Positions 1,536 through 60,052 of a DNA stretch of 64,000 nucleotides are shown piece after piece (within the stretch, counting starts at the first letter, position 1; each line of letters opens with the position of its first letter). The stretch is taken from the NCBI GenBank assembly GCA_028356125.1, contig JAOMTZ010000009.1:1-64000 (forward strand). Reading direction: 5' to 3'. A program made the position numbers and the translations under genes. Under the pieces are notes generated by a model, which saw only the letters and a program-made list of their open reading frames with translations, was not told the origin of the DNA and searched no databases. This DNA comes from Candidatus Poseidoniaceae archaeon (lineage in GTDB: Archaea > Thermoplasmatota > Poseidoniia > Poseidoniales > Poseidoniaceae).

Positions 1536-1685
1536 ACACCCTCTGTACACCCACTGTATAGGCATCTCATGGTAGGGTAGGGAGTGTACTGGGGGACTGA
1601 ACACCCATTGTACTTCTCCATAATGTCATGAGGGGTTTGGAAGAACCCTTACGATTTCGTGGGAATGATATGTCGCTTGTCTGAA
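1536..1685 (+). repeat. dispersed intergenic repeat, copy A
   Basis: Non-coding stretch between the SDR and the TSP3 gene. Positions 1583-1674 match the reverse complement of 5713-5804 (copy B) without gaps and with about 8 mismatches in 92. A third copy (C) lies near 25841-25927. Inside it, aggggtt...aaccctt (about 1630-1650) can form a short stem with one G-T pair. The left arm (acaccctctgtac, from 1536) is also found at 4938-4950 and, inverted, in copy B. The unit ends about 25 bp before the TSP3 start codon, so it may carry that gene's promoter. Confidence 0.8.
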
Positions 1686-1710
1686 TTATCTAGATTGACG
1701 ATTATCTTTT

Positions 1711-4700
1711 ATGCTCAATCAACAACCAAGGTTCATGAAGAACAAGCTAGCGTTGGGTATGGTTTTGATTTTAGTCTTCCAGATAATATCATTTTTACCA
1801 GTCCAGTATGGTATAGAGCTAAGTGAAGACAATAATGAAGTTTCATTCACTTCAACGATAAGTCAGAATTCATTTTATGTGGGCCAGTCGGAAATAGCAC
1901 TGGTTGATTCATCACACATTGTGATTTGGGAGAATGATAACTTAACTTTGAGAAATTTGAGAAACAATAGTGTAATTGATTCAACATCTTGTGACAGGGC
2001 AATGACATTCTATGGTACAACAGAATTCGATAATCCGTTCTCAATAAACAAGACTCGGGAATTAATAACATGTGAAAACACTGTATTGGAGTGGGACGCA
2101 ACAGGATTTAGCCACAGATATAATGGAACTTTTTTCATGGGCGCAGATCCTGTCTACAACACGACAATTTCAACATCCACAAGTGCGGGGTGTAGCAATA
2201 ACGAATATGTGTTAACGATTTTCATCTCGAGAAACAACACTTCGGTTACACAAAATAATCACTGTGTCAGGACAACCGGCAATGGTGGGCCTTGGGACAT
2301 AATACTTAGCGATGAAGGGAAGCATTACACACTCGGTGTCATGGGTGCTGCTTGGCCTTCAAATGAGTATGTATGTCTTACAAGTAGTATGCAGTGTGTT
2401 ATACAGCAATACAATAGTGGAAATTATCATCGAGTACCAGATATCGTCAATGCAGGAATGTCTATGCAAATAGTTGCAAGTGGCAGTGGGGCGTCTGCTC
2501 TGACCACGTTTCGGATTACAAATCCTTACAGCACAGTTGCTTTTTCGGGGTACAATATTGGTGATACGGACGTTCAAGCAGCAGCATTGAATCCAAGTTG
2601 TAACATGGCTGTGGTTAACAATGACATATATCTAAACGGGACTATAATCAACTCGGGAGTTGCAGGAATTACGTCGATTGATTGCTTAGATCAAAACAAC
2701 TACTCCTATGTTCAGTTTGGCGTCGTCAAATCAGTATGGCAAGATGGAGATCTTGACGGAGTAAATGATTTGGAAGATCAATTCAATTCAGATTCGACTC
2801 AGTGGTTCGATTTAGATGGAGATGGATATGGTGACAATCCAATTGGAACAACCCCCGACAGTTGTCCTAATGTAATCGGTAATTCAACGATTGATGAATT
2901 TGGCTGCAAAGACAGGGATGGAGATGGATATTCCGATACAGGTGATGCTTTTCCTAATATTGGGGTATCTTGGAGTGACTTAGATGATGATGGGTATCCC
3001 GACCAAGGAGCAACCGATGATGTGGATGACTGCCCCACAACACCTGGAGAATCTATGAGGAATGGAACTCTTGGTTGTCCGGACACAGATTTCGATGGAT
3101 GGGCAGATTCCGAAGATGCTTATGACAATGAATCCAGTCAATGGTCCGATCAAGATGGGGACGGATACGGTGATGAACTCAATGGATTCCAAGGAGATGC
3201 CTGTCCTTCAGTAACTGGCAATAGTACTGAAGATAGATTCGGGTGTACTGATTCTGATGGCGATGGTTGGTCAAATGCTGGTGATGATTTACCTCAAGAA
3301 CCGACTCAATGGAAAGATCGAGATGGTGACGGTTATGGTGAGAATCCACAAGGCGTCAATCTGGATTCATTCCCTGCTGATGGAACACAATGGAACGACA
3401 CAGATGGTGACGGCCACGGGGATAATCCGTACGGAGCCGGAGGAGATTGGTTCCCTGATGACGCAACACGCTGGCAGGACTCAGATCGTGATGGAGTCGC
3501 AGATGAAGATGACGCATTCCCGAACGAAGTCACCCAATGGAATGACACTGATGGTGACGGATACGGTGATGAAGAAACTGGTAACCGAGGCGATGCATTC
3601 CCAAACGATTCAACACGCTGGCAGGACTCAGATCGTGATGGAATCGCAGATGAAGATGACGCATTTCCGAACGAAGTGACTCAATGGAACGACACAGATG
3701 GTGACGGATACGGTGATGAAGAAACTGGAAATCGTGGCGATGCATTCCCTAACGACGTTAATGAATGGGCTGATTCCGATATGGATGGGCTAGGAAATAA
3801 TGCAGATGCATTCCCATTTGACCCCACTCAAACTGAAGACAGAGATGGTGACGGCATGGGCGACAATCCAATGGGTATTGGAGCAGACAAGTTCCCTGAT
3901 GATACCACACAATGGGGAGATATTGACGGTGACGGCTACGGTGATAATCCACTTGGTAACAATCCGGATGTTTTCATCACTGATGCAACTCAATGGTCAG
4001 ATGCGGATGGCGACGGTTATGGAGATAATCCAACTGGAAGGTTGTATGACCAATTCCCGCAAAACCCAACTCAATGGGTTGATGATGACGGTGATGGATT
4101 AGGTGACAACCTGAATGGCACTGACGCCGATCCTTATCTAAATGACTTCGACAATGATGGCTACAATGACAGCATCGATACCTTACCTAAACTATCATCT
4201 CCGGGAGATTTAGATGCCGATGGTTGTTTGGATGAAGACGATGCTTTTCCCTCTAATTCTCAAGAGTGTTTGGACAGTGACGGAGATGGAGAAGGCGACA
4301 ATGCTGACGTTGATGATGACAATGATGGTTGGGCGGATACTGATGAAATTCGGCTAGGTACTGACCCATTCAATTCTGCTGAAGAACCAGTGGAATCATT
4401 CGAGATTGTGATTCCCGGAACTTCTGTTGGTCTAGGTGCTTGGGACTTGATTGGAATGTTTGGCGGTATTCCGCTATTCGTTTGGATCGGGTTTGGATTC
4501 GTTACTCGTAATACACGATGTGCAAAATACGAAGCAATGCTTCGTGAAGCGAACACTCGAGACGAGTTAGAATCAGTGGCTTACAAGTGGGAATACTCGC
4601 TTATGCTTCGTATGCTGGGGCCTCACCAAGGAATCCGATTAGAACGCTTACGAGCTGAATTAGATGATGTCTTTGAGTCGCAAAACCAAAAATTGTCTTC

Positions 4701-4923
4701 GATCGACAATCATGAATTCGACCAGACTAAAATGGTCGTTGAGGAAATGAATGATACAGAAAAACAAGTTCCAGAACTAGTTGCGCAGAGTGATTATCCT
4801 TCAATCGAAGATACAGCGCAGAAAACAGACGAAAATGGATATGAATGGTTCACCGCCCAAGATGGGACTAATTTCTACAGAACAATTGGCTCTCAAGCAG
4901 ATTGGACTAGGTTAGAAAATTGA
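1711..4923 (+). CDS. large surface protein with thrombospondin type 3-like calcium repeats
   Basis: A 1070-residue exported, membrane-anchored protein. A signal peptide (MKNKLALGMVLILVFQ) begins at the ATG at 1735, an alternative start to the one annotated. Residues ~35-340 form a unique beta-rich domain with Cys pairs. About 345-890 are tandem DxDxDGxxD repeats of the QW-x-D-x-DGDGYGDNP type, which bind Ca2+ in the TSP3 family. One hydrophobic helix (~908-934) precedes a ~135-residue cytoplasmic tail ending in an aromatic-rich GYEWFTAQDG-type segment. It is related in plan to the protein at 40253-42712. It is followed by a zinc-ribbon gene, and both sit between inverted repeats A and B. Its role is probably adhesion or surface structure; the ligand is unknown. 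Confidence 0.85.
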   Translation: MLNQQPRFMKNKLALGMVLILVFQIISFLPVQYGIELSEDNNEVSFTSTISQNSFYVGQSEIALVDSSHIVIWENDNLTLRNLRNNSVIDSTSCDRAMTFYGTTEFDNPFSINKTRELITCENTVLEWDATGFSHRYNGTFFMGADPVYNTTISTSTSAGCSNNEYVLTIFISRNNTSVTQNNHCVRTTGNGGPWDIILSDEGKHYTLGVMGAAWPSNEYVCLTSSMQCVIQQYNSGNYHRVPDIVNAGMSMQIVASGSGASALTTFRITNPYSTVAFSGYNIGDTDVQAAALNPSCNMAVVNNDIYLNGTIINSGVAGITSIDCLDQNNYSYVQFGVVKSVWQDGDLDGVNDLEDQFNSDSTQWFDLDGDGYGDNPIGTTPDSCPNVIGNSTIDEFGCKDRDGDGYSDTGDAFPNIGVSWSDLDDDGYPDQGATDDVDDCPTTPGESMRNGTLGCPDTDFDGWADSEDAYDNESSQWSDQDGDGYGDELNGFQGDACPSVTGNSTEDRFGCTDSDGDGWSNAGDDLPQEPTQWKDRDGDGYGENPQGVNLDSFPADGTQWNDTDGDGHGDNPYGAGGDWFPDDATRWQDSDRDGVADEDDAFPNEVTQWNDTDGDGYGDEETGNRGDAFPNDSTRWQDSDRDGIADEDDAFPNEVTQWNDTDGDGYGDEETGNRGDAFPNDVNEWADSDMDGLGNNADAFPFDPTQTEDRDGDGMGDNPMGIGADKFPDDTTQWGDIDGDGYGDNPLGNNPDVFITDATQWSDADGDGYGDNPTGRLYDQFPQNPTQWVDDDGDGLGDNLNGTDADPYLNDFDNDGYNDSIDTLPKLSSPGDLDADGCLDEDDAFPSNSQECLDSDGDGEGDNADVDDDNDGWADTDEIRLGTDPFNSAEEPVESFEIVIPGTSVGLGAWDLIGMFGGIPLFVWIGFGFVTRNTRCAKYEAMLREANTRDELESVAYKWEYSLMLRMLGPHQGIRLERLRAELDDVFESQNQKLSSIDNHEFDQTKMVVEEMNDTEKQVPELVAQSDYPSIEDTAQKTDENGYEWFTAQDGTNFYRTIGSQADWTRLEN
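3466..3759 (+). repeat. 147-bp tandem duplication inside the TSP3 gene (2 copies)
   Basis: Units 3466-3612 and 3613-3759 encode the same 49-residue block, beginning TRWQDSDRDG and ending GDAFPND. Apart from scattered silent changes and one Val/Ile swap, the nucleotides are nearly identical, unlike neighbouring TSP3 repeats, which have diverged. This marks a recent in-frame duplication that lengthened the calcium-repeat stalk. Confidence 0.85.
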
Positions 4924-4937
4924 TTCGAACCCTCAAG

Positions 4938-4994
4938 ACACCCTCTGTACATACAGTCCAAGCGTCGGTACCGACGCGTGAGTTTCTCACGCGT
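4938..4994 (+). repeat. partial dispersed repeat (copy D) with overlapping palindromes
   Basis: 4943-4970 matches 26 of 28 positions with the reverse complement of 5808-5835 in copy B. It runs into a perfect 16-bp palindrome (gcgtcggt/accgacgc, 4962-4977). That overlaps a perfect 9-bp stem with a TTT loop (acgcgtgag, 4974-4982; ctcacgcgt, 4986-4994). The two structures share 4974-4977, so they cannot form together. The stretch lies between the TSP3 stop and the zinc-ribbon gene. Confidence 0.7.
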
Positions 4995-5018
4995 GGGTAT
5001 CACAAGGGTTTGGGTAGT

Positions 5019-5040
5019 GTCGGGCCAAGAATTATACCTA
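5019..5040 (+). promoter_or_regulatory. promoter of zinc-ribbon membrane gene (conserved family promoter)
   Basis: A tgtcgggccaaga segment followed by a TATA-like ttatac (5032-5037) sits 29 nt before the ATG at 5061. The same arrangement (cCGGGayaGATwTTATAtc, then 28 nt to ATG) precedes the two paralogous zinc-ribbon genes near 59 and 60 kb. The spacing fits archaeal TATA/TBP transcription giving leaderless mRNA. Confidence 0.6.
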
Positions 5041-5060
5041 TCAAGAAATCAGATTCTAAT

Positions 5061-5696
5061 ATGGTAGAAGTAGATTGTCCTTTATGCTTCAAGACTGTAG
5101 ACCTTGGCGGTGATTCAAAAGGAACATATGAGTGTCCATATTGCAATGAGGATTTCGATTATGAACCGGAAATTTTTCTAACTGCTCCGATAATTATCGG
5201 TAAAAAAACCAATCATTCCGAAGTTTTGAACCTTCTATCTGAGATTTTTACATATTTCGTATTAACAGTAACAACGGTAGGGATTCTAAGCCTAATTAAG
5301 TTCTTCGAAGATCGTAGTATTAAGAAAGAACGGTTGGAGTGGCAACGCGAATATTCCAACGGCATACTTAATCCAGATTTTTTGAGTGGTTCTGGAATTA
5401 AGGTATATCCTAATTTGGAAGCAGAATTGCTTCCAATTGCCAAGGACACTCCATCGCACAAATTTGGAAAAGAAGACATCACTGGATTGGTGTTTCACCA
5501 ATCCATTTCGGGCCTATATTATAACCCCGAGTTACACATAATCTCAGACGGTCATTTTGTTGCAAAAATAAATCTACGCGGGAATAAGAAGAGTCGTCGC
5601 AGGGAAGGTTTCGGTAGAGATTTAGCAGAGGAAATTTGTGCGTTGTATAAATTAGAAATGGATGAAACCAAGGCTTATGTATCGTCTGGAATGTAA
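5061..5696 (+). CDS. zinc-ribbon single-span membrane protein
   Basis: Unrecognised family. The ATG at 5061 gives 211 residues starting MVEVDCPLCF; the frame stays open back to 4920, but that part covers palindromic repeat D and is probably non-coding. Residues 1-35 carry two CxxC pairs (CPLC...CPYC) forming a zinc ribbon. One hydrophobic segment lies at about 60-82, followed by a charged, mixed alpha/beta C-terminal region of ~120 residues. The N-terminal ribbon is clearly shared with the proteins at 57901-59010 and 59142-59960, with the same start and promoter layout. It is encoded inside the A/B-bracketed unit and may be a sensor or scaffold; function unknown. Confidence 0.75.
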   Translation: MVEVDCPLCFKTVDLGGDSKGTYECPYCNEDFDYEPEIFLTAPIIIGKKTNHSEVLNLLSEIFTYFVLTVTTVGILSLIKFFEDRSIKKERLEWQREYSNGILNPDFLSGSGIKVYPNLEAELLPIAKDTPSHKFGKEDITGLVFHQSISGLYYNPELHIISDGHFVAKINLRGNKKSRRREGFGRDLAEEICALYKLEMDETKAYVSSGM

Positions 5697-5703
5697 TGCA
5701 CTA

Positions 5704-5840
5704 ATAACTAAAGACATATCATTCCCCCTAAATCGCAAGGGTTCTGTCAAACCCCTCAAGAGATTATGGAGGAGTACAATGGGTGTTCAGTCCCCCAGTA
5801 CACTGCCTACCGACGCGTGGACAGTATGTACAGAGTGGCG
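5704..5840 (-). repeat. dispersed intergenic repeat, copy B (inverted relative to A)
   Basis: Fills the gap between two convergent genes (zinc-ribbon, ending 5696; M28-MFS, ending 5859). 5713-5804 is about 91% identical to the reverse complement of copy A, including the ggggtttgacagaaccctt hairpin, whose arms are intact. 5808-5835 extends the match to copy D. Copies A and B therefore form terminal inverted repeats around a ~4-kb two-gene segment. Confidence 0.8.
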
Positions 5841-5858: not shown

Positions 5859-8498
5859 TCAAACAGTGTTTGCATCTTCACCCAGTACTCTTCTGGTTTC
5901 ACTAGGATCGATGAATATCGCTCCTATAATGACTATCGTTTCCAAAACCGCCGAGATAAGGAAGAGCGTAGGATAGTCAAATCTACTAGCTAATGGGTCT
6001 GTTAGTTGATAGCCAATAATTGCTGACAAATTCATCATTGCCATGTATGCAGTAAATTGCGTTCCACCAACCTCTCCCCAAGTAATTCTCATCATCAATG
6101 AATACACGTTGATTGAAACCATAGCCCAAAGTAATGTGTGAATCGACCATATTGACATCATGAATAAATTGCTGTCCCAGAGGGATTCGCTCATGCCCCA
6201 ACATGCAGTGGTTAGGGCGGCCCCAAGAGCAGAATAAATCATTACAGATTTACCACCAAACTTCCTTCCAAGTTGACCCCCTACAATATATCCAATCATG
6301 GTCACAACCAGAATAATACCACCTTTGGTAGCATTGAATCTTTCTTGAGACCAATTCAATTCTGCTAAGAATAATAATGGCAGAATTGGTACTAAGAAGA
6401 ATGATAGTGAGATTACTAAACTTAACAAAATTCCAATTTGCGTTGAACGTAAAGAGAATGCAGTTTTGACATTCGACAAGATTTCTTTGAAAGTACGCTC
6501 TTCTTCTACTACTTCTAATCCATTAGGTGCTACGGTTTCTAATGCAATATCCTCTTCCCAAGGGAATAATTTCTCACCAGGTCTCTCTCTCATCAATAAT
6601 GGCACTAGCATGATGACTAGTAGAATTGGAATCTGGATCAATATGGCTCCTGTGATTCCAACTGTTCCAATTATGGTTCCCAGTCCGGCTCCGCCGATTA
6701 TTCCTCCAACGGTTTTTGATGTGAACATGTAACTGTTGACTTTCTCCATTTCATGCGGTTTCAGTATGTCAACCGCAAGAGCATCGGTACTGACATCTTG
6801 TAGGGATGTGAATATGTTGTAGATCAAAAACATCACTGCTACTAACTGAACATTGCTTGCAGGGTTAGGGATGAATAACATCGAAGATAGAATCAATACC
6901 ATTCCTGTTTGTGCAATCAAAATCCAAGGCCTTCTTCTTCCTAGTTGTCGATATTGGAATCTATCTATGACTGGACCCCATAGGAATTTCAATGACCAGG
7001 GCAATGTCCCTAAAGTCAGTAAGAATGCTAATTCTTTTGCAGCAACTCCTTCTACTGCAAGGAATGTTACAAACGTGACAGTGATGAATCCCCAAGGTAT
7101 TCCTTGAGCCACATACAGAGCACACAGCGTCAATACTCTCGCACGATAATTGTCAACCAACGTTTTACCTTCAGATTCAGATCCTTTGGAGCCCGATTGC
7201 GCTGACTCTTCTTCCAATATCATGCCCAATTGAAATCGATCACGTCTGATTGAAATGAATCCAACGAATACGAACATTCCTAAGAACCAAAGCAAAAATA
7301 GTATTCCGGATATACTACCACTGCCTACAGACATAGTGGATGTAGAATCTTCTTCATCAGCCATATCTGAATCGTTATTATTCCAATCTTGCCAAGCTAG
7401 AGTTGCTACAATATCCAGTCCGGTTTGCAATCCCGATTCTAAATTATTTCTTCCTCCTGCCATTGTGTTGATTACCGTAACAGAATCGCTTTGCGAGTGT
7501 TTTGGAGTTTGTTCACAGGAATCCCCTTCCTCCAACAGATACTGATGCTGACCTCTTAGCCAGGTGGCTGTGTGGTTATGCATTATGAAATTGAAATGGT
7601 CAGAGTTCCCCTTTGTGTCATCGATAACGCGAACCCATTCATCAGGGTGCGAAAGGTCGGTATTGATTTGTTTAAGTTGGGTTTGAAAATCCTCAGCATT
7701 GGAACGCATATCTTCTGTAACTTCCAATCCATTATTCTCATAATAAGACCAATCAGATACTGGAGAAGTGAACATGTATAGTGTCCAAAAATCTTCATCA
7801 CAACCCGAAAGTTGGCTTGCAAGAGGGGTAGGGACTGGCCAATTTAGGCCAAACATGTCGAGATTGACGTAGGTGACATCAACATAATCAGGAATTTGCT
7901 CAGTAACGAAATGAAGGCTACCCATACCTCCTCCTTCAGAAGAAGACGTACCCTGCCACTCCTCATAGTCCCACCATGCCAATTTCCATGTATGCGTTGG
8001 AGTTTGATTCCATTCAGAAAATGTTCTCGCTAATTCTAGCAATGAGCCGCTTCCTGTCCCATCATCATATGCGCCTGAACTTGTACAACCAGTGTATGTT
8101 TGTCCAATTAGAGGTGGAGGAGAATAACAAATCGCATCATGATGGGCACCAACTACTATCCATTCGTCTTCTAGTGTGCCATTGATTGTAATGACCAAGT
8201 TTTCACAATTGTTGCATTCCTGAGTTTGGAATGCTTGTCTTTCGACATAGTAGCCCATATCTTCTAACTCTTCAGCGATCCAATTCCTTGCATCAAAATT
8301 AGCTTGAGTGTCGATTTTCCTATACCCAAAGTCGGCCATTTGTACCATATTGTCGTATGCAGCACTTCCTTCAGGCCATGAAGGGGGTTCTTCATCGGCT
8401 TGTGCATTGACATCATTTGGATATGCAATTGCACTTGAAAGAGAAACTTGGAGCATCAATAGGCCCAAGAGGATTGCAAAAACAGACCTCCTGTGCAT
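5859..8498 (-). CDS. fusion of exported M28 zinc peptidase and AmpG-like MFS permease
   Basis: An 879-residue protein. A signal peptide (1-25) leads into an M28 peptidase domain (~45-370) with all expected zinc and catalytic positions: AHHD (H119, D121), YDDGTG (D145), EE (179-180), NLD (D214) and a late H334 in KHSQSD. A transmembrane helix (~397-416) and short linker connect to an MFS permease (~450-875, about 12 helices) with an AmpG-type KFLWGPVIDRF motif. Topology is consistent: peptidase outside, linker inside, permease starting inside. It probably trims peptides at the cell surface and imports the products, but the permease substrate is not determined. It is convergent with the zinc-ribbon gene, and repeat B lies between them. 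Confidence 0.85.
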   Translation of the reverse strand: MHRRSVFAILLGLLMLQVSLSSAIAYPNDVNAQADEEPPSWPEGSAAYDNMVQMADFGYRKIDTQANFDARNWIAEELEDMGYYVERQAFQTQECNNCENLVITINGTLEDEWIVVGAHHDAICYSPPPLIGQTYTGCTSSGAYDDGTGSGSLLELARTFSEWNQTPTHTWKLAWWDYEEWQGTSSSEGGGMGSLHFVTEQIPDYVDVTYVNLDMFGLNWPVPTPLASQLSGCDEDFWTLYMFTSPVSDWSYYENNGLEVTEDMRSNAEDFQTQLKQINTDLSHPDEWVRVIDDTKGNSDHFNFIMHNHTATWLRGQHQYLLEEGDSCEQTPKHSQSDSVTVINTMAGGRNNLESGLQTGLDIVATLAWQDWNNNDSDMADEEDSTSTMSVGSGSISGILFLLWFLGMFVFVGFISIRRDRFQLGMILEEESAQSGSKGSESEGKTLVDNYRARVLTLCALYVAQGIPWGFITVTFVTFLAVEGVAAKELAFLLTLGTLPWSLKFLWGPVIDRFQYRQLGRRRPWILIAQTGMVLILSSMLFIPNPASNVQLVAVMFLIYNIFTSLQDVSTDALAVDILKPHEMEKVNSYMFTSKTVGGIIGGAGLGTIIGTVGITGAILIQIPILLVIMLVPLLMRERPGEKLFPWEEDIALETVAPNGLEVVEEERTFKEILSNVKTAFSLRSTQIGILLSLVISLSFFLVPILPLLFLAELNWSQERFNATKGGIILVVTMIGYIVGGQLGRKFGGKSVMIYSALGAALTTACWGMSESLWDSNLFMMSIWSIHTLLWAMVSINVYSLMMRITWGEVGGTQFTAYMAMMNLSAIIGYQLTDPLASRFDYPTLFLISAVLETIVIIGAIFIDPSETRRVLGEDANTV

Positions 8499-25775: not shown

Positions 25776-25824
25776 AAACATCGCCTTCCAATAGGGTCCT
25801 TCTAATCGGAGGTATTGCAGGGTA

Positions 25825-25927
25825 GCGTCTACATCAGCCTGCTGAACACCGATTGTATTTTCCAATAGTGTCTTGAGGGGTTTGAGAGAGGCCTTGCGAT
25901 TTCATTAATCAGATGTCGCTTATCTGT
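25825..25927 (+). repeat. dispersed intergenic repeat, copy C
   Basis: In the ~290-bp gap between the lipoprotein and DUF309 genes. From 25841 it reads like copy A with a few small gaps (ctgaacacc.attgta, cttgaggggttt, cgattt, agatgtcgctt.tctg), in the same orientation as A. The hairpin arm is degraded (aggcctt instead of aaccctt). Its left part (gggtagcgtct, 25831) matches the inverted gacgctaccc motif of copies F and G, linking the two subgroups. The rest of the gap shows no gene. Confidence 0.7.
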
Positions 25928-26061
25928 ATAAAACAACAATCGTGCAGGCGTATTTTGTACACTGTGCTCATCCCCCTTGATACCAACTAGATAAGCCAAA
26001 TTTCTACCACTAAAGGTCTTTAGGAAGCGTAACTTGAAGGCAAACAAGTGAAGCGCAACCC

Positions 26062-30138: not shown

Positions 30139-31596
30139 CTAGTTAATGGATTCTGAAATACGAGATTGAACATATTCTATGCTTTTTTCCCACCAATATG
30201 GAATTTCGACCAGTGTAATTCCAATCTTGCCACATTCAATTCTCTTCTCTTCATCACGCTTCTGTTGAGATTCAAAACGATCGGTAGATTCGTGCCAATA
30301 ACTTGAATCATAGTGTTGTTGTCCCTGATATTCAAGTGCAAGTTGGATTCTAGGCAACCAAATGTCAAGTTCCATTCTCCACCCACTTGGGAAAATTAAT
30401 TCTGGATGCTTATAATCAAATAATATTTCATCATCAGGATATAGTTTCTTTACAATTTCAAATAGAGCGGTTTGATTCTTCTTTGGACATAATGGGCACC
30501 CAGGTAAATCGCGGCTGTTGGGTGCAGTTCTCCATTCATGTTCGTGATTCTTGCATTTCCACCAAACCAACTTATTGCTTCCTTTAGTAACCTCTTTTGG
30601 AGTTAATGAGTTACGACTAGGGTGCCATTCTGCTGCTAACTTCGGATGAGTGGTCTCTAAGCAGTTGGACTCAACAGCACGCCTACCATAACACACCGGA
30701 CATTTCACATTCTCTCTGGTTCGATTTACGATTGTACAGTCGAAAACGTGATCTTCGCCCTTTGGACACTTCCACCAGACATTTATATTTGAAAAAGGAG
30801 TATAATCAGTTGGTTTCAAAGGCGAATTTAACTCTGTATGCCACTCCAATGCAATCTCGGGAAATTCCGTTTCTAAGTTGTAAGATGAATCAACTTTTTG
30901 TCCACCACAGTAAGGACATCCAGTCTCGCTGCGAGTTCTATGAACTATGTTCGTTACCCATTTGTGTTCTGGGTTGAAACTACAAATCCAATGCACTTTT
31001 TTGTTACTTCCGCTCGTGTAGGATTCAGGTCCAGTTATATTCTTTTGATAGTCCCATTCACAAATCAAATCTGGAAACTCAAAGGCCAATGAATTTGATT
31101 CGCAAACCCTTTTTCCTTTGCAAAAGGGGCATTCTCCGCCCTTCTCATATTTTTGAGAATTAGAAACTCTATCGGTTAGGGGGCCCTCCCATTCGTGATC
31201 ATCTGCGACTTCGCATTTCCACCACACTTTTCTCTTTGAGCCTGAAATAACGTCGTGAGGCAATAAAGAGCCATTCTTTGTTGGGTGCCACTGCTTTGAT
31301 AATTCTGGATATTTAGTGGCAAGAGAATTCGTAACTGAAACCTGTTGATTTGCGCAGAACGGGCACCCAATACCTAGAGTTCGGCGACCAACTGGAGCAA
31401 TCCAATTGTGATCGCTTCCCTTTGAGCATACCCAATGAAATTTCTTTGAAGATCCGGCAGCAATATCGTGAGGATTTATGTCGGACTCATTTTTATCTAT
31501 ATCCCACTGAGCGAGTACTTCAGGAAACTCTCTCAACGTTTTTCCTCTGAGGCTCACTATTGTCCCTAACCGCCGTATCAGATAAATGTGATTCAC
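30139..31596 (-). CDS. multi-zinc-ribbon (DUF4379-like) protein with nuclease-like C-terminus
   Basis: 485 residues. Six tandem units of ~65 residues each contain a conserved W-x-x-x-x-N segment followed by VWWKC...H.W and CP.C pairs, for example WVCSKGSDHNW with CPFC, and WWKCPKGEDHVF with CPVC. This is the probable zinc-ribbon repeat family DUF4379. The last ~110 residues (ELDIWLPRIQLALEYQGQQHY ... ITLVEIPYWW) match a Vsr/PD-(D/E)xK-type nuclease pattern with E-x-D and E-x-Q motifs. Such proteins suggest DNA binding plus cleavage, as in defence or mobile-element enzymes. It is placed between repeats E and F/H. A GTG at codon 14 is an alternative start. Function inferred only. Confidence 0.7.
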   Translation of the reverse strand: MNHIYLIRRLGTIVSLRGKTLREFPEVLAQWDIDKNESDINPHDIAAGSSKKFHWVCSKGSDHNWIAPVGRRTLGIGCPFCANQQVSVTNSLATKYPELSKQWHPTKNGSLLPHDVISGSKRKVWWKCEVADDHEWEGPLTDRVSNSQKYEKGGECPFCKGKRVCESNSLAFEFPDLICEWDYQKNITGPESYTSGSNKKVHWICSFNPEHKWVTNIVHRTRSETGCPYCGGQKVDSSYNLETEFPEIALEWHTELNSPLKPTDYTPFSNINVWWKCPKGEDHVFDCTIVNRTRENVKCPVCYGRRAVESNCLETTHPKLAAEWHPSRNSLTPKEVTKGSNKLVWWKCKNHEHEWRTAPNSRDLPGCPLCPKKNQTALFEIVKKLYPDDEILFDYKHPELIFPSGWRMELDIWLPRIQLALEYQGQQHYDSSYWHESTDRFESQQKRDEEKRIECGKIGITLVEIPYWWEKSIEYVQSRISESIN

Positions 31597-31649
31597 TTTT
31601 ACATATAGTCGGGATTTTTCGATGTATAGTGGAAGCGGTTTAGCGGCTC

Positions 31650-31740
31650 ATCAAAGGGTCTGTCCGAATACCCATTGCTCAGATATTACCTAATCAAAGG
31701 GCTAGCGGTGGGCCTTGTCAGACGCTACCCATCTGAATGC
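31650..31740 (+). repeat. dispersed repeat copies H (short) and F
   Basis: F (31697-31735, caaagggct...agacgctacccatc) matches copy G (32207-32245) at 31 of 39 positions without gaps, in direct orientation. H (about 31652-31680, tcaaagggtctgtccgaatacccattg) is a shortened relative, and its tacccattgct is also in copy E. The gacgctaccc motif occurs inverted in copy C. It is followed by a G/C-rich hairpin (ccccgtttacgagggg). No gene is seen in this gap. Confidence 0.6.
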
Positions 31741-31768
31741 CCCCGTTTACGAGGGGTCCCCTTGCAAT

Positions 31769-32107
31769 TTACTCTTCACCTGAAAGTTCATCTTGAGGTT
31801 GAATTAACATTCTGTAGTATTCAAATAGGTAGAAAATTAGTGACAGCAAGATCAATATTGCAGAAATAATCAAGCAAACAAGCAATGCCATTCCTTGACC
31901 AAAGCCACAATAAAATTGTCCATAGCATGGATTGAAATGGAAGTATATTTCATACCCAACAATCGAAATTAGTGATAATTCAGCACCAGCAAAAAAAGTC
32001 CAAAATGCATATTTGAAATTTCTTTTCTCACGAGTATAATCCTGTATCATTTTTATTAGAACTAATTGGATAAGAATACCAATTATCACATATCCAGAAG
32101 TTTGCAC
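31769..32107 (-). CDS. small three-helix membrane protein
   Basis: 112 residues with three predicted membrane helices: YVIIGILIQLVLIKMI, a middle segment FWTFFAGAELSLISIVGYEIYF, and the strongly hydrophobic MALLVCLIISAILILLSLIFYLF. A Cys pair (NPCYGQFYC) lies in the outer loop between helices two and three. No family recognised. It is the only gene between direct repeats F and G, so it looks like an inserted cassette. The acidic tail (DELSGEE) is cytoplasmic or external depending on topology. Confidence 0.55.
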   Translation of the reverse strand: MQTSGYVIIGILIQLVLIKMIQDYTREKRNFKYAFWTFFAGAELSLISIVGYEIYFHFNPCYGQFYCGFGQGMALLVCLIISAILILLSLIFYLFEYYRMLIQPQDELSGEE

Positions 32108-32203
32108 AATTGATGTTTCAACACTACGGACATAAACATGCCTCCGTTATTTCGGATGAATTACAAGGTTATATCCAATTACTCATTAAAACAGAAATTG
32201 AAT

Positions 32204-32248
32204 TTCAAAGGGCTTTGCGTGGGTCATTTTAGACGCTACCCATCAGTC
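32204..32248 (+). repeat. dispersed repeat, copy G
   Basis: caaagggctttgcgtgggtcattttagacgctacccatc pattern, 31/39 identical to copy F and in the same orientation. Its last bases coincide with the stop codon of the HAD phosphatase gene (32243), so the repeat boundary lies exactly at the edge of a conserved gene. Confidence 0.6.
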
Positions 32249-40252: not shown

Positions 40253-42712
40253 ATGAGGAAGACGATTGCATTTGTTCTGGCAATCCTACTAATACCTGTA
40301 ATCCCGTCAGCCCAAGCAGAATCAAATCTGTTAGATGTTGGGATTACCGACTCGGTGGATGGTAGATTCGTCCACACTTCATTCTCTTCATCATCGACAT
40401 TGATTACTCTGACATCAACTGGTAACCTTTCAGAGCATTTCTGGGGAAGTGGTGAATTAATCACACAATGGTCAATTGAATTGAACATCTCTGCAAACTC
40501 AGCCACGCCAGATTCTACTGGCCTACAAATAGCAGTTTCTCATACTGATGGCGTTTATGTCATCAATACCGAACTAAGAGTAGTATCGGCCAGTTACAAT
40601 ACTACTTCATCGGTTGATTACGTGGTGTGGGATACCGAAGGCGAACTTTGGCTCGGATTCTTCGGCGGTGAAAGGAAAGCAAAGGAGTTTGACGGAGTCG
40701 ACTTTACAGGGTTTGCAACTCCTTCTCACAATACTGCAATGACTGCAATGACAATAATTTCAGATAATCGAATAGTTACAGGTGGAAGAGACAATTTAGT
40801 CAAGGTAACTACTCAAGAAGGAGTTTTGGAAAGAAGCTTATCAGACTTCAGCCAATACCCTAGCGCCATAATTAATGATGGTAGTGGCAACATTATTGTC
40901 GGGTGTACAAATGGTGACTTATTCAGATATGACTTCAATGACTGGTCGATGGAGGAATTAGCAATTTCAAGCAGTCAAACGATTAACTCGATTACTATAG
41001 CAGATGATGGGAAAATATTGGTAGGTACTCTAAATGGAAATTTACACATCATTGATGATGTCACATTCACCGAAGAGGGCGAATATACATCTTCTGGCAG
41101 AGTCATGACTGCAACTTTTGGTAGTGAAGGCCAACTATACATCATTACGACATTTTCAACATCCTCCAAAATCAGACTTTATGACTTAGATTCCGACTCT
41201 GATGGAGTATCTGATAGTTTAGATCTGTTCCCGCTAGACTCCACTCAATACAGTGACCTGGATGGCGATGGGTATGGTGACAACCCCGATGGAACGAATC
41301 CAGATACTTTCCCAGAAGATATGTCCCAGTGGGCAGATGTAGATGGAGACGGCTTTGGCGATAACCCCGATGGAAACTCTTCAGACGATTTTCCTACAAA
41401 CCCTTCACAGTGGAAAGATACTGATGGCGACGGGTATGGAGACAACTCAAATGAAGAAATGGGAGATAGGTTCCCATTAGATTCAACCCAATGGTCAGAT
41501 ACCGATTCCGATGGATTTGGCGATGAAGTTGATGGATACAATGGCGACCATTGTCCTGAACAAAACGGATTCTCCGAAATTGATAGGAAAGGTTGCAAGG
41601 ATTCGGACGGCGATGGATATTCCGACCCAACAGACGACTGGACAATTGGCGATGGTGCTGACTTTTCGATTTATGATAAATCACAGTGGATTGACACTGA
41701 TGGTGATGGTTACGGAGACAACCTATCAGGCAATGATGCAGACACGTGCCCTAACACAGCTGGAAACTCCACCAACACCTACATTCCAGAGATATCTGAT
41801 GATGGCACATTAAGTCTCATCTATGTAGTCAGAGAAAAGTTCGGTTGCATAGATAGTGATGGCGATGGTTTTTACGATCTAGGCGATGACTTACCCAACG
41901 ATGGAAGAGACTACATTGATACAGATGGAGATGAAGTTGGAAAGAGTCGAGATTACAACGATTCAAATCGATTAGTTCAAACAGAAGTTGACCATTGCGC
42001 ACAAGTTTCGACAGATGTAACTGAAATGTGTTTAGGAATTAGAAGTGTAGATTATCAAACTTATTTATCCGGTTTATCTAATACCGATGATGCCCTTTCG
42101 TTTTATCAATGGCAATTGTCAGAGCAGGAAGCAGAAGATGAAGAAGCTTCCAGCAAACAATACTGGTCCACAGCAGCAGAAATATTGCCGTTCCTAGGCG
42201 CAGGTTTCGCCTCAATAGTTGCAGTCTTGCTAATATACGCAGCAATCGGTAAATCTCGCCGACGTAGAGCATTAGTCAAGACATATGGACTTGCATTCGC
42301 TAATGATGACAACAGTGCTGAGACTGAAGCCCTCGAAGGCAAAGCAGGTCTTTCTGCAGTTGGCGGAGTCGACTCTGGCAAATTCTGGGACGATGATGTT
42401 GATCCAATGGAAGTCGCTGATGATGGCGACTTAATCGGTGGCGGATTCGATGACATTGATTTGAAAGGGTCTGACGAAATAACCGATACAACAGAAACCA
42501 TGGAAGAAACAGCTTCTCTTGAAGAATTAGCAGGAATGCCTGCTCAGACTAAAGTTACAGAAGAAGCCATTCCAGAAATCGAGTCAACTACTGAGGCCGC
42601 ATCACAAGAGGCGCCTGAAGCACCTCCTGTTCCTGCTGAAGGACTGCCTGACGGTTGGACAATGGACCAATGGAAATGGTATGGTGCAGAGTGGCTTGCA
42701 AAGCAAAAATAG
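40253..42712 (+). CDS. surface protein with N-terminal propeller and TSP3-like calcium repeats
   Basis: 819 residues. Signal peptide (MRKTIAFVLAILLIPVIPSAQA), then a ~280-residue beta-propeller-like domain with repeated GxIxVGxxNGxL/xxYD strands, then TSP3-type repeats from ~310 to ~600 (DGDGYGDNPDGTNPDTFP, QWxDxDGDGFGDN), a membrane helix (~642-664) and a 150-residue acidic cytoplasmic tail. The tail ends GLPDGWTMDQWKWYGAEWL, a short aromatic module seen at the ends of other surface proteins of this group. It parallels the 1711-4923 protein but with a different N-terminal head. A calcium-stiffened stalk presenting a propeller is the likely plan. Confidence 0.82.
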   Translation: MRKTIAFVLAILLIPVIPSAQAESNLLDVGITDSVDGRFVHTSFSSSSTLITLTSTGNLSEHFWGSGELITQWSIELNISANSATPDSTGLQIAVSHTDGVYVINTELRVVSASYNTTSSVDYVVWDTEGELWLGFFGGERKAKEFDGVDFTGFATPSHNTAMTAMTIISDNRIVTGGRDNLVKVTTQEGVLERSLSDFSQYPSAIINDGSGNIIVGCTNGDLFRYDFNDWSMEELAISSSQTINSITIADDGKILVGTLNGNLHIIDDVTFTEEGEYTSSGRVMTATFGSEGQLYIITTFSTSSKIRLYDLDSDSDGVSDSLDLFPLDSTQYSDLDGDGYGDNPDGTNPDTFPEDMSQWADVDGDGFGDNPDGNSSDDFPTNPSQWKDTDGDGYGDNSNEEMGDRFPLDSTQWSDTDSDGFGDEVDGYNGDHCPEQNGFSEIDRKGCKDSDGDGYSDPTDDWTIGDGADFSIYDKSQWIDTDGDGYGDNLSGNDADTCPNTAGNSTNTYIPEISDDGTLSLIYVVREKFGCIDSDGDGFYDLGDDLPNDGRDYIDTDGDEVGKSRDYNDSNRLVQTEVDHCAQVSTDVTEMCLGIRSVDYQTYLSGLSNTDDALSFYQWQLSEQEAEDEEASSKQYWSTAAEILPFLGAGFASIVAVLLIYAAIGKSRRRRALVKTYGLAFANDDNSAETEALEGKAGLSAVGGVDSGKFWDDDVDPMEVADDGDLIGGGFDDIDLKGSDEITDTTETMEETASLEELAGMPAQTKVTEEAIPEIESTTEAASQEAPEAPPVPAEGLPDGWTMDQWKWYGAEWLAKQK

Positions 42713-57904: not shown

Positions 57905-59010
57905 GCAACTTGTCTGTGTTTTCCCATTCCTGCAACTGAGATGGCGATATAGACGAATGAATATATCATGGTAAGCCACCAAATCATTCCAAGACCATAT
58001 GAATAATCTTCTGGCTCCTCCCAATTATCATCTAACCTGAATAAATGATTGAAATCAGGAATAATTAGCCAGTAAAGAATTAGTCCAAAGACTACTAACG
58101 TCGCCATAATCGCACTTAACATATTTTCATACATAGTAATCTTAGTTAACAGATTATTTTCGCTTTCAATAATACCAATGTGTTGTAACAGTAGAAGCGT
58201 CTTAATCGAAAATATAAGCAAAAAGAATAGGAGTGAAATTAGCATGACGATTTCGATTAAAGTACCTCCATTATCCCAACTATTGTACCAATCATGGACC
58301 TCTCCTAGTAGCTCTAAATCCTCCTCACATTGATCTTGAAATTCCTTCTCATCTTCTGCATCTCCCCATCCGTCCCATTCTTCACAATACTCTTCTTTAG
58401 ATTCTATTTGTTGATTAGCTTCAATTACCATATTGCCATAATTCTGACCAGAATATCTTACCCTTTCATACTCTTCACCATCGGTATTCCCCCAACAGCC
58501 ATCATTTTTTGTGTCAGTTACAGACTTTGTAAGCACTGCAGAAGTTCCAAAACTCCATTCTTGTCCCGAACCTGTGCCTTCTGAAAGTTCGCATTCTCGA
58601 ATATATTCTGCATCGTATTCTTCCCATGAATCTGCAGTGTACCATTTATCAGAATTCAATCCAGTAAATATCAACATTAGCATAGCGAATGTAGCGAATA
58701 AAGAAGAGACTTGAATCCCTCCATATCTCAGAGTATCCATTTGTTTATCTCTTGTAGTCTGGCTTTTTCGTTCAAAAAGTTTGGTTTTTGAATCTAATGC
58801 TTTGGTCCTGGATTTATTTTCTTTAGTATTGGTAATTTTAGAATTAGTACTAACTTTGGAATCAGTATTTAGTTTCCTCTTCTTCCTTTTCATCCTAGGA
58901 GCTTCCCCCCATTGGTATTCATTTTGACAATATGGGCATTCGAAGAGCCCGTGAGCTCCGTCATCCATCTCCAAGTCCTCATTACAATGCGGACATTCAA
59001 TGACTACCAT
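57901..59010 (-). CDS. zinc-ribbon four-helix membrane protein (paralogue 1)
   Basis: 369 residues. The N-terminal zinc ribbon CPHC...CPYC (5-33) is followed by a very basic linker (~38-95), then helices at about 102-124, 240-264, 290-312 and 340-362. A large extracellular loop (~125-238) between helices 1 and 2 is acidic with several Cys (CEL, GCWG, YCEEW, DQCEE). This claudin-like layout repeats in the next gene at 59142. No family recognised. It overlaps the end of the DHS gene by 4 bp in convergent orientation. The promoter is conserved with its paralogues. Confidence 0.75.
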   Translation of the reverse strand: MVVIECPHCNEDLEMDDGAHGLFECPYCQNEYQWGEAPRMKRKKRKLNTDSKVSTNSKITNTKENKSRTKALDSKTKLFERKSQTTRDKQMDTLRYGGIQVSSLFATFAMLMLIFTGLNSDKWYTADSWEEYDAEYIRECELSEGTGSGQEWSFGTSAVLTKSVTDTKNDGCWGNTDGEEYERVRYSGQNYGNMVIEANQQIESKEEYCEEWDGWGDAEDEKEFQDQCEEDLELLGEVHDWYNSWDNGGTLIEIVMLISLLFFLLIFSIKTLLLLQHIGIIESENNLLTKITMYENMLSAIMATLVVFGLILYWLIIPDFNHLFRLDDNWEEPEDYSYGLGMIWWLTMIYSFVYIAISVAGMGKHRQVA

Positions 59011-59030
59011 GTTTCGGATTAATCGATATG

Positions 59031-59052
59031 GGATATAAAATCTGTCCCGGCA
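59031..59052 (-). promoter_or_regulatory. promoter of zinc-ribbon paralogue 1
   Basis: On the minus strand: gccgggacagattttatatc, 28 nt before the ATG (TATA-like ttatat). It aligns base for base with the element before the gene at 59960, and partly with that before 5061. Spacing implies leaderless transcription. Confidence 0.6.
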
Positions 59053-59141
59053 TTCAGGGAAAATAAAAATTCGAGTAAGGTCTAATTCTCCACTTGTTAA
59101 ATGTATTAATTAATTGAAAGTTATCTTGTATACAGTTCAAG

Positions 59142-59960
59142 TTAATACATCGAAGTTATTTTTTTGATTGGAATGACGAGTGACCCTAGTGTGAATACAA
59201 ACATTGTCCACCACATTGACCCTAAACCACTAGAAATCTCACTGCTTGGAATCATTGGATTATCAGTTAATCCGGGGCAGATGATTGCAAATATCAGGCA
59301 CCCTAAAACCAACATTACAGCAGTGGCAATCGAACAAACAAGGTCTAATGGCGATAGTCTTCTCAACAATTCCTCCGACAAATATACTTTCTCAAACGCC
59401 TCTAGAATAACGGCCCCTTTGATGCATAACAAGGCTATCGATGAAAGCAGAGCCAGGATTAAGAAAATCTTCATTGTAAAACCTGAGCTATCCCATGATC
59501 CATACCAATCTGCTTTTTCCTTCATCAGATCACATTGGTCTGAATCGGCCATTTCGCACATTTCCTTTCCTGAATCAGCATTTTTATTGTTCATTTCTTC
59601 CAACGATTCATAATCTCCATCTTCAGCATAACCAATAGCGTTCCCCTCGACAGTCGTCTCGACTTCAGAAAGGCCAAATCTAGAGTCAACCTCGAGGTCA
59701 AATTCTGAATATGTTTCAGTTATTGAATACCATGAGGTAGATCCGAGTCCTACAATTATGATAATTAGGAGCAATAGCGAGTATGCCGCCGCTACTATAT
59801 CCTCAACATTAAATGAATGTGAGTAATTGCCATCCATGGTATCGTCGGATTCTTCACCCCATTCATATTCCATCTCACAATGAGGGCATTCGAATATGCC
59901 GAACGAATCATCATCCATCTCCACCTCTTCATCGCAGTGTGGGCATTCGATTTCCACCAT
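59142..59960 (-). CDS. zinc-ribbon four-helix membrane protein (paralogue 2)
   Basis: 272 residues from the ATG at 59960 (MVEIECPHCDEEVEMDDDSFG); an upstream extension to 60035 covers the promoter and is rejected. N-terminal ribbon CPHC...CPHC, acidic linker, then four helices (~47-70, ~162-186, ~208-232, ~248-268) with an acidic outer loop (~72-160) carrying MCEMADSDQC. Same plan as its neighbour but with a short acidic instead of a long basic linker. The tandem arrangement suggests local duplication and divergence. The role could be membrane sensing or scaffold assembly; not known. Confidence 0.75.
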   Translation of the reverse strand: MVEIECPHCDEEVEMDDDSFGIFECPHCEMEYEWGEESDDTMDGNYSHSFNVEDIVAAAYSLLLLIIIIVGLGSTSWYSITETYSEFDLEVDSRFGLSEVETTVEGNAIGYAEDGDYESLEEMNNKNADSGKEMCEMADSDQCDLMKEKADWYGSWDSSGFTMKIFLILALLSSIALLCIKGAVILEAFEKVYLSEELLRRLSPLDLVCSIATAVMLVLGCLIFAIICPGLTDNPMIPSSEISSGLGSMWWTMFVFTLGSLVIPIKKITSMY

Positions 59961-59980
59961 GACCCGAACTAATACAGATG

Positions 59981-60003
59981 TGATATAATATCTATCCCGG
60001 CAA
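59981..60003 (-). promoter_or_regulatory. promoter of zinc-ribbon paralogue 2
   Basis: Minus strand: gccgggatagatattatatc, TATA-like element 28 nt before the ATG at 59960. It differs from the paralogue-1 promoter at only about two positions over 20, while the genes themselves have diverged, so the promoter is selectively kept. Confidence 0.6.
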
Positions 60004-60052
60004 TGAAGAAAATCATAGTCAGGTTGATGACTCAACGACTCTTGGAGGGTTT

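Follow-up and report, generated by a model that had tools for sequence, protein, structure and literature searches.

Inverted repeats at a surface-protein locus of a Marine Group II archaeon as probable left ends of mobile gene cassettes

Why should a gene for a TSP3-repeat surface protein and a neighbouring zinc-ribbon gene be bracketed by two inverted copies, A and B, of one repeat? The stretch of DNA which we analysed (64,000 nt, hereafter the window) opens contig C41 of a genome of 1.55 Mb that is 65% complete, the left edge of the window being the contig end. The relatives belong to Marine Group II of the archaea, under the labels Poseidoniales or Thalassarchaeaceae. Although uncultured, archaea of this group are some of the most common in the surface ocean; to our knowledge little is known about the movement of their flexible genes. 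Based upon sequence comparison, we suggest that A and B are probably the left ends of mobile, mostly single-gene cassettes.

Repeat copies A and B

A repeat search of the window revealed inverted arms at 1576–1674 and 5713–5811 (99 nt, 91% complementary, spacing 4038 nt), in agreement with a preliminary description which had reported two copies of about 91% identity in opposite orientation. The length given there, about 150 bp, was too great, the common part covering some 100–113 nt and the outer 40 nt or so being differing flanks. With copy A as the query, blastn retrieved copy B (E 3.6e-34) and a copy on contig C38 of the same genome (E 5.6e-36), both far beyond chance. Further relatives, missed in the earlier description, occur in the window at 25820–25930 (+), 32241–32133 (−) and 31730–31618 (−). 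The two genes said to lie between A and B are indeed present (1711/1735–4923 and 5061–5696, both +), the product of the second bearing an N-terminal CxxC..CxxC motif, and, again as described, no transposase was found among the genes of this interval; nor was a recombinase. The neighbours are an SDR gene ending at 1515 (+) and, on the other side, a gene for an M28-peptidase/MFS fusion (5859–8498, −). A second, shorter inverted pair (4943–4970 and 5808–5835; 28 nt, 93%) is situated between the TSP3 and zinc-ribbon genes and just outside copy B.

A second gene specifying a TSP3-repeat surface protein is located at 41237–41895 of the window; its repeats are of the type seen in the cargo at 1735. 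A 161-nt direct repeat (58902–59062 and 59852–60012, 71%) is found in two further zinc-ribbon genes related to the cargo at 5061.

The repeat family and its placement

A model based upon 21 copies identified the repeat at 10 places in this genome and gave matches in 20 of the 27 genomes of the genus. The core GGGTAGCGTCT has eight exact copies in this genome as against none for the reversed pattern, and the core was present in 73 of 171 genomes of the family, representing 9 of its 11 genera. Four sequence types (T1–T4) share a common front, GGGTAGCG; A and B are both T1. The junction logo of 134 copies is AAAGGGTAGCG, the G following GGGTA being invariant in all of them. Rather than being scattered over hundreds of unrelated loci, the repeat is represented in this 65%-complete genome by only some 16–18 copies, located in the gaps between genes. 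Of 133 genes lying in front of an element, 86 end toward it, the element mostly following their stop codon by no more than 60 bp (p 9e-4). Among elements no more than 3.5 kb apart, the orientation "+−" was observed 19 times versus 3 times for "−+" (p 9e-4), and 28 pairs run in the same direction.

Orthologous sites differ in what they carry. The 3′ end of a sialidase-like gene has an element in this genome, G017 and G020, and none in a dozen other orthologues. Nor is the gene order downstream of the MFS gene retained in all relatives: one relative (L021/L251) possesses a T3 inverted pair with different cargo, L012 has another element type, and the more distant orthologues (L013–L020, L023) have no such element at this site. 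This variation bears upon the idea that recombination between A and B flips a surface-protein cassette. While two inverted copies of 91% identity 4 kb apart are what an invertible segment would require, we consider this very improbable, since the relatives carry other cargo at the site and not a flipped version, with no inverted allele at the loci seen, and since both genes keep their own upstream sequence, so that inversion would not obviously switch a promoter.

A single structured RNA family was considered and rejected: RNAalifold analysis of 21 copies yielded 4 pairs at −0.8 kcal/mol, and Rfam gave no match at the repeat. Single T2 copies fold well, and a possible pseudoknot was recognized by eye in types T2 to T4. 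Numerous contigs terminate at an element or no more than a few hundred bases away. Of some 125 core matches, about 16 are found no more than 300 bp from the start of a contig, by hand estimate several-fold above expectation for contigs of about 20 kb.

Cassette anatomy

The cassette is composed of a left end (LE, about 105 nt), one gene in either orientation, and a variable right end (RE, about 45 nt) which terminates in GGG|TA; the LE usually opens with GCGTCT or GCGAGT after the GGGTA core. We arrive at this unit, with TA cores, because of the breakpoints between loci, the one-gene composition of arrays and a phased palindrome in the RE. Homology of left flanks ends at GGGTA, after which one locus continues with GCG (the element) and the other with CCC or other sequence. 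Clean breakpoints of this kind, at 87–97% identity, are found in L145/L288, L096/L277, L168/L171, L177/L275 and L290/L172, and in L400/L393 the element type changes at the same GGGTA point. The joints are of the form RE-GGGTA|LE in tandem arrays, and GGGTA|CCC at cassette-free sites and where two right ends meet. Of the 19 units between same-strand elements, 15 contain a single ORF of 60 aa or more, which typically starts about 100 nt inside the unit and stops some 50–70 nt before the next GGGTA. Lastly, a GGG(N)CCC palindrome phased at −31 to −28 upstream of the junction was present in 18 of 134 copies versus 2 of 146 controls (p 8e-5).

Applied to the window (Table 1), this anatomy gives a TSP3 cassette at 1580–4968, the gene and its RE presumably forming one cassette on the basis of their position, and a zinc-ribbon cassette lying inverted at 5807–4971. 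Judging by these boundaries, copies A and B quite likely mark the left ends of two separate cassettes, and they appear as an inverted pair because the cassettes, each with a right end unlike its left end, meet RE to RE. The shorter inverted pair (4943–4970/5808–5835) can be explained in the same way, since the zinc-ribbon cassette splits a palindrome at its central TA. In silico excision of this cassette together with one TA restores a 54-bp palindrome in which 24 of 26 arm positions are paired, whereas the best of 2000 shuffles pairs 17. A comparable split palindrome (18/18) surrounds a 983-bp cassette in L021.

Table 1. Cassette features and neighbouring elements in the window
Feature	Position	Strand	Remark
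TA core of GGGTA junction (1575–1579), SDR flank/cassette 1	1578..1579	.	sequence, junction rule
Cassette 1 LE, type T1 (copy A)	1580..1690	+	
Cassette 1 cargo: TSP3-repeat surface protein, ORF open from 1711	1735..4923	+	
Cassette 1 RE; last 26 nt form half of 54-bp palindrome	4925..4968	+	cassette assignment presumed from position
TA core between two right ends	4969..4970	.	
Cassette 2 RE, CCGACGCGTGAG...CTCACGCGTGGG hairpin	4971..5015	-	
Cassette 2 cargo: zinc-ribbon membrane protein	5061..5696	+	
Cassette 2 LE, type T1 (copy B)	5698..5807	-	
TA core, outer end of cassette 2	5808..5809	.	
Other half of split palindrome, beside MFS gene 3′ end	5810..5835	-	24/26 positions complementary to 4943–4968
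M28 peptidase-MFS fusion, flanking, outside cassettes, conserved in relatives	5859..8498	-	
Another LE, T1-like, diverged	25820..25932	+	
Complete one-gene cassette: T3 LE, 112-aa gene (31769–32107), RE	31728..32236	-	boundary reference case
T4 LE of next array cassette (gene 30139–31596, -)	31618..31725	-	

The 5′ block of the zinc-ribbon cassette (4940–5161, RE side) was found again at 75–83% identity in L148 and L175, among other neighbours, and its left end is T2 in L175 versus T1 in the window. These loci, which hint that the zinc-ribbon cassette moves separately, argue against a single two-gene transposon of which A and B would be the terminal inverted repeats, with a TA target duplication as in the IS630/Tc1-mariner group. 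The inverted ends, the TA on each side and the lack of a transposase inside are all compatible with such a non-autonomous element, and yet the split palindrome sets one boundary between the two genes, inverted pairs are often of mixed type (T2/T1, T4/T2, T1/T2), direct arrays are as common as inverted pairs, and common cassettes have one LE and a different RE; we regard it as quite improbable. The non-autonomous mobile unit of the preliminary description survives in part: there are mobile-element ends, there is no transposase, and the locus varies among relatives, but A and B are not the two ends of a single two-gene unit.

Probable movement between loci and genera

Cassettes which are 93–99% identical are found at different loci in different genera, the homology usually stopping at GGGTA on each side, while in the same comparison the remaining DNA homologous between this genome and those genera is 65–78% identical. 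The cassette at 31728–32236 of the window recurs with 98.8% identity in L265 (genus g10) and in L395 (same genus), in unrelated places. The L265 match extends from GGGTA to GGGTA, with one base changed in the second, and is followed by GCG here and CCC in L265; that with L395 begins at the front and ends some 20–25 nt short of the RE end. The cassette of L146 is also present in L177 and L286 (genus g4), the three having different flanks on both sides and the same junction bases; the L177 copy sits after an apparent tRNA gene. Further cross-genus pairs are L145/L288 and L290/L172 (95–96%). L285/L261 agree at 96.8% from the front, the alignment stopping before the RE core. Some common cassettes differ in LE type, T1 versus T2 in the zinc-ribbon cassette and T2 versus T4 in L145/L288. 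Because of these differences, and of the matches falling short of the RE core (L395, L285/L261), we assume that ends are also exchanged or decay by other routes. What the sequences show is a repeat family with one cassette architecture, common breakpoints and near-identical cassettes across genera.

Counting against the cassette reading, none of the loci compared offered an empty allele of a single cassette flanked on both sides by orthologous sequence, and no circular cassette form was seen in these fragmented MAGs, where many contigs end at elements. Viral carriage was rejected: none of five element patterns had an exact match in IMG/VR, and the window cassette was absent from the phage and plasmid collections searched.

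One might alternatively see in these elements palindromic intergenic repeats at gene 3′ ends, either REP/BIME-like or bidirectional terminators, around which accessory genes gather and between which homologous recombination swaps neighbours. Their position in the gap after stop codons (the 86 of 133 front neighbours noted above), their palindromic, mosaic nature and the recombined look of the types would agree with this. The breakpoints, however, fall on the same few bases though the flanking arms have little sequence in common, the gene travels together with its LE and RE across genera, the element is missing at most orthologues of one gene end, and a Y1/RAYT transposase (Y1_Tnp) was found in none of the 27 genomes of the genus, controls being positive. 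We consider this explanation unlikely and retain that of mobile cassettes.

Cargo and candidate enzymes

The cargo is for the most part of unknown function or defence-like. A minority of 46 cargo or between-element proteins match Pfam, and several match defence or nuclease families (AIPR, AbiU, HNH, GIY-YIG). No recombinase or transposase was identified among the 46, including DDE and DEDD (PF01548/PF02371) families.

A serine recombinase (PF00239) is encoded in 6 of the 27 genomes of the genus, several being broken and three lying near or in elements: that of G017 is truncated inside a cassette, that of G026 is about 2 kb from an element, and in this genome the distance to a degenerate element is 0.2 kb. 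At a rough 3% chance each, three of six gives p 5e-4; this proximity is weak evidence, recombinase genes and elements alike being part of the flexible genome. In the 262-aa protein of G026 (L175:106–894) the catalytic domain is related to those of resolvases, the TP901-1 integrase and Ccr recombinases. As a first guess the mobilising enzyme might be a serine recombinase, which we can advance only tentatively.

Decaying recombinase genes occur in the genus, one (L155:405–833) cut by a T1 left end in G017 and another frameshifted in G025 (L406). At the G026 locus (L175:905–2016) two paralogous membrane proteins (188 and 170 aa) are encoded between the serine recombinase gene and a zinc-ribbon cassette.

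Tyrosine recombinases number essentially one per genome in the genus, the genomes being incomplete, and this protein is XerA-like and not IntI; it scores 106 bits against a cutoff of 265 for the integron integrase (TIGR02249) and 180 bits against a cutoff of 220 for archaeal XerA. The promoter side of its gene bears variable inserts. The one in this genome, absent in L391, is an island of 11.6 kb containing four copies of the element; elements are also found on this side in L389, L393, L395 and L400. XerA is our second guess for the mobilising enzyme, somewhat unlikely as it may be.

At L145:2137–9033 in this genome, the one XerA gene points away from an insert that holds four elements running in the same direction, an integron-like arrangement; elsewhere the orthologues have different inserts or lack one. 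The region upstream of XerA (L145:1916–2030 and 16 orthologous loci) displays two conserved hairpins whose loops are of the UUCG type and whose stems vary (TGTCC..GGACA, TCTGC..GCAGA). The conservation ends sharply, and the block resembles a structured leader plus promoter. We do not claim an attI beside XerA, as this block resembles the gene's own promoter and leader, beyond which the inserts vary.

Proposed mechanism and significance

We propose that a site-specific recombinase would excise and insert cassettes at the TA core, the symmetry of which would allow entry in either orientation, with a preference for sites next to palindromes and the 3′ ends of genes. On this view the window has a TSP3 cassette inserted behind the SDR gene, and a zinc-ribbon cassette in inverted position splits the palindrome that lies between the right end of the TSP3 cassette and the MFS gene's 3′ end. 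These elements likely represent a new kind of archaeal gene cassette, recombination presumably being the means by which it moves. Our fuller proposal, a good possibility though short of probable, is of an undescribed system of planktonic archaea in which asymmetric LE/RE cassettes enter in either orientation at a symmetric TA core within GGGTACCC-type sites. A Ccr/TP901-1-like serine recombinase, or else XerA, would act on them in trans, and the system may carry genes for defence and surface proteins from one Marine Group II genus to another. No earlier description of such elements was found in the literature searched, which covered few subscription papers.

Recognisable cassette ends would permit mobile genes to be listed from raw sequence, among them AIPR, AbiU, HNH, surface and membrane cargo. 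A cassette system would also help to explain why assemblies break at these sites, and it offers a recombination site that can be tested.

Comparison with known systems

REP/BIME sequences mobilised by RAYT are likewise palindromic, mosaic and mostly found at gene 3′ ends; unlike them, the units here carry genes and have two distinct ends, and with no Y1 transposase in the 27 genomes of the genus RAYT mobilisation was rejected. The elements differ from IS630/Tc1-mariner in that, by inspection, the LE (GCGTCT...) and the reverse-complemented RE (CCC...) of common cassettes are unmatched. With the IS110/IS1111 insertion sequences (for which see PMC11187229) they share asymmetric noncoding ends, a two-base core and palindromic targets, whereas none of the 46 scanned cargo proteins matches a DEDD transposase. 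Guide-like pairing of LE loops with target arms, sought by eye, was not consistent. An element mobilised by a serine integrase would need a serine recombinase acting at a two-base core, and here PF00239 is present in 6 of 27 genomes.

The pdif (Xer-dif) modules of Acinetobacter (PMC12907356, for example) also place accessory genes between inverted sites, with no enzyme inside and a host recombinase suspected. Here, however, LE and RE differ in sequence and the junctions lack a 28-bp XerC/XerD-type site: the junction logo has no 11-6-11 arrangement, and no base exceeds 60% conservation in the 8 nt to the left of GGGTA. A chromosomal dif was not located.

Integrons, including those of Archaea (Ghaly et al. 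2022, PMC9668308), offer further parallels. Both have mostly single-gene cassettes with accessory and unknown genes as cargo, arrays, and a structured element resembling a recombination site at one cassette end, and in four genomes here the promoter side of a tyrosine recombinase gene is occupied by an array. The cassettes described here differ in lying in both orientations at many dispersed loci, in short arrays and with free gene orientation. Because the common tyrosine recombinase of these incomplete genomes is XerA-like and not of the IntI class, and because the logo of 134 copies has a GGGTA junction and no R box (RYYYAAC/GTTRRRY) as in attC, we regard the system as resembling integron cassettes but not as an integron. 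If confirmed, it would represent an independent archaeal solution to the role which integrons play in bacteria.
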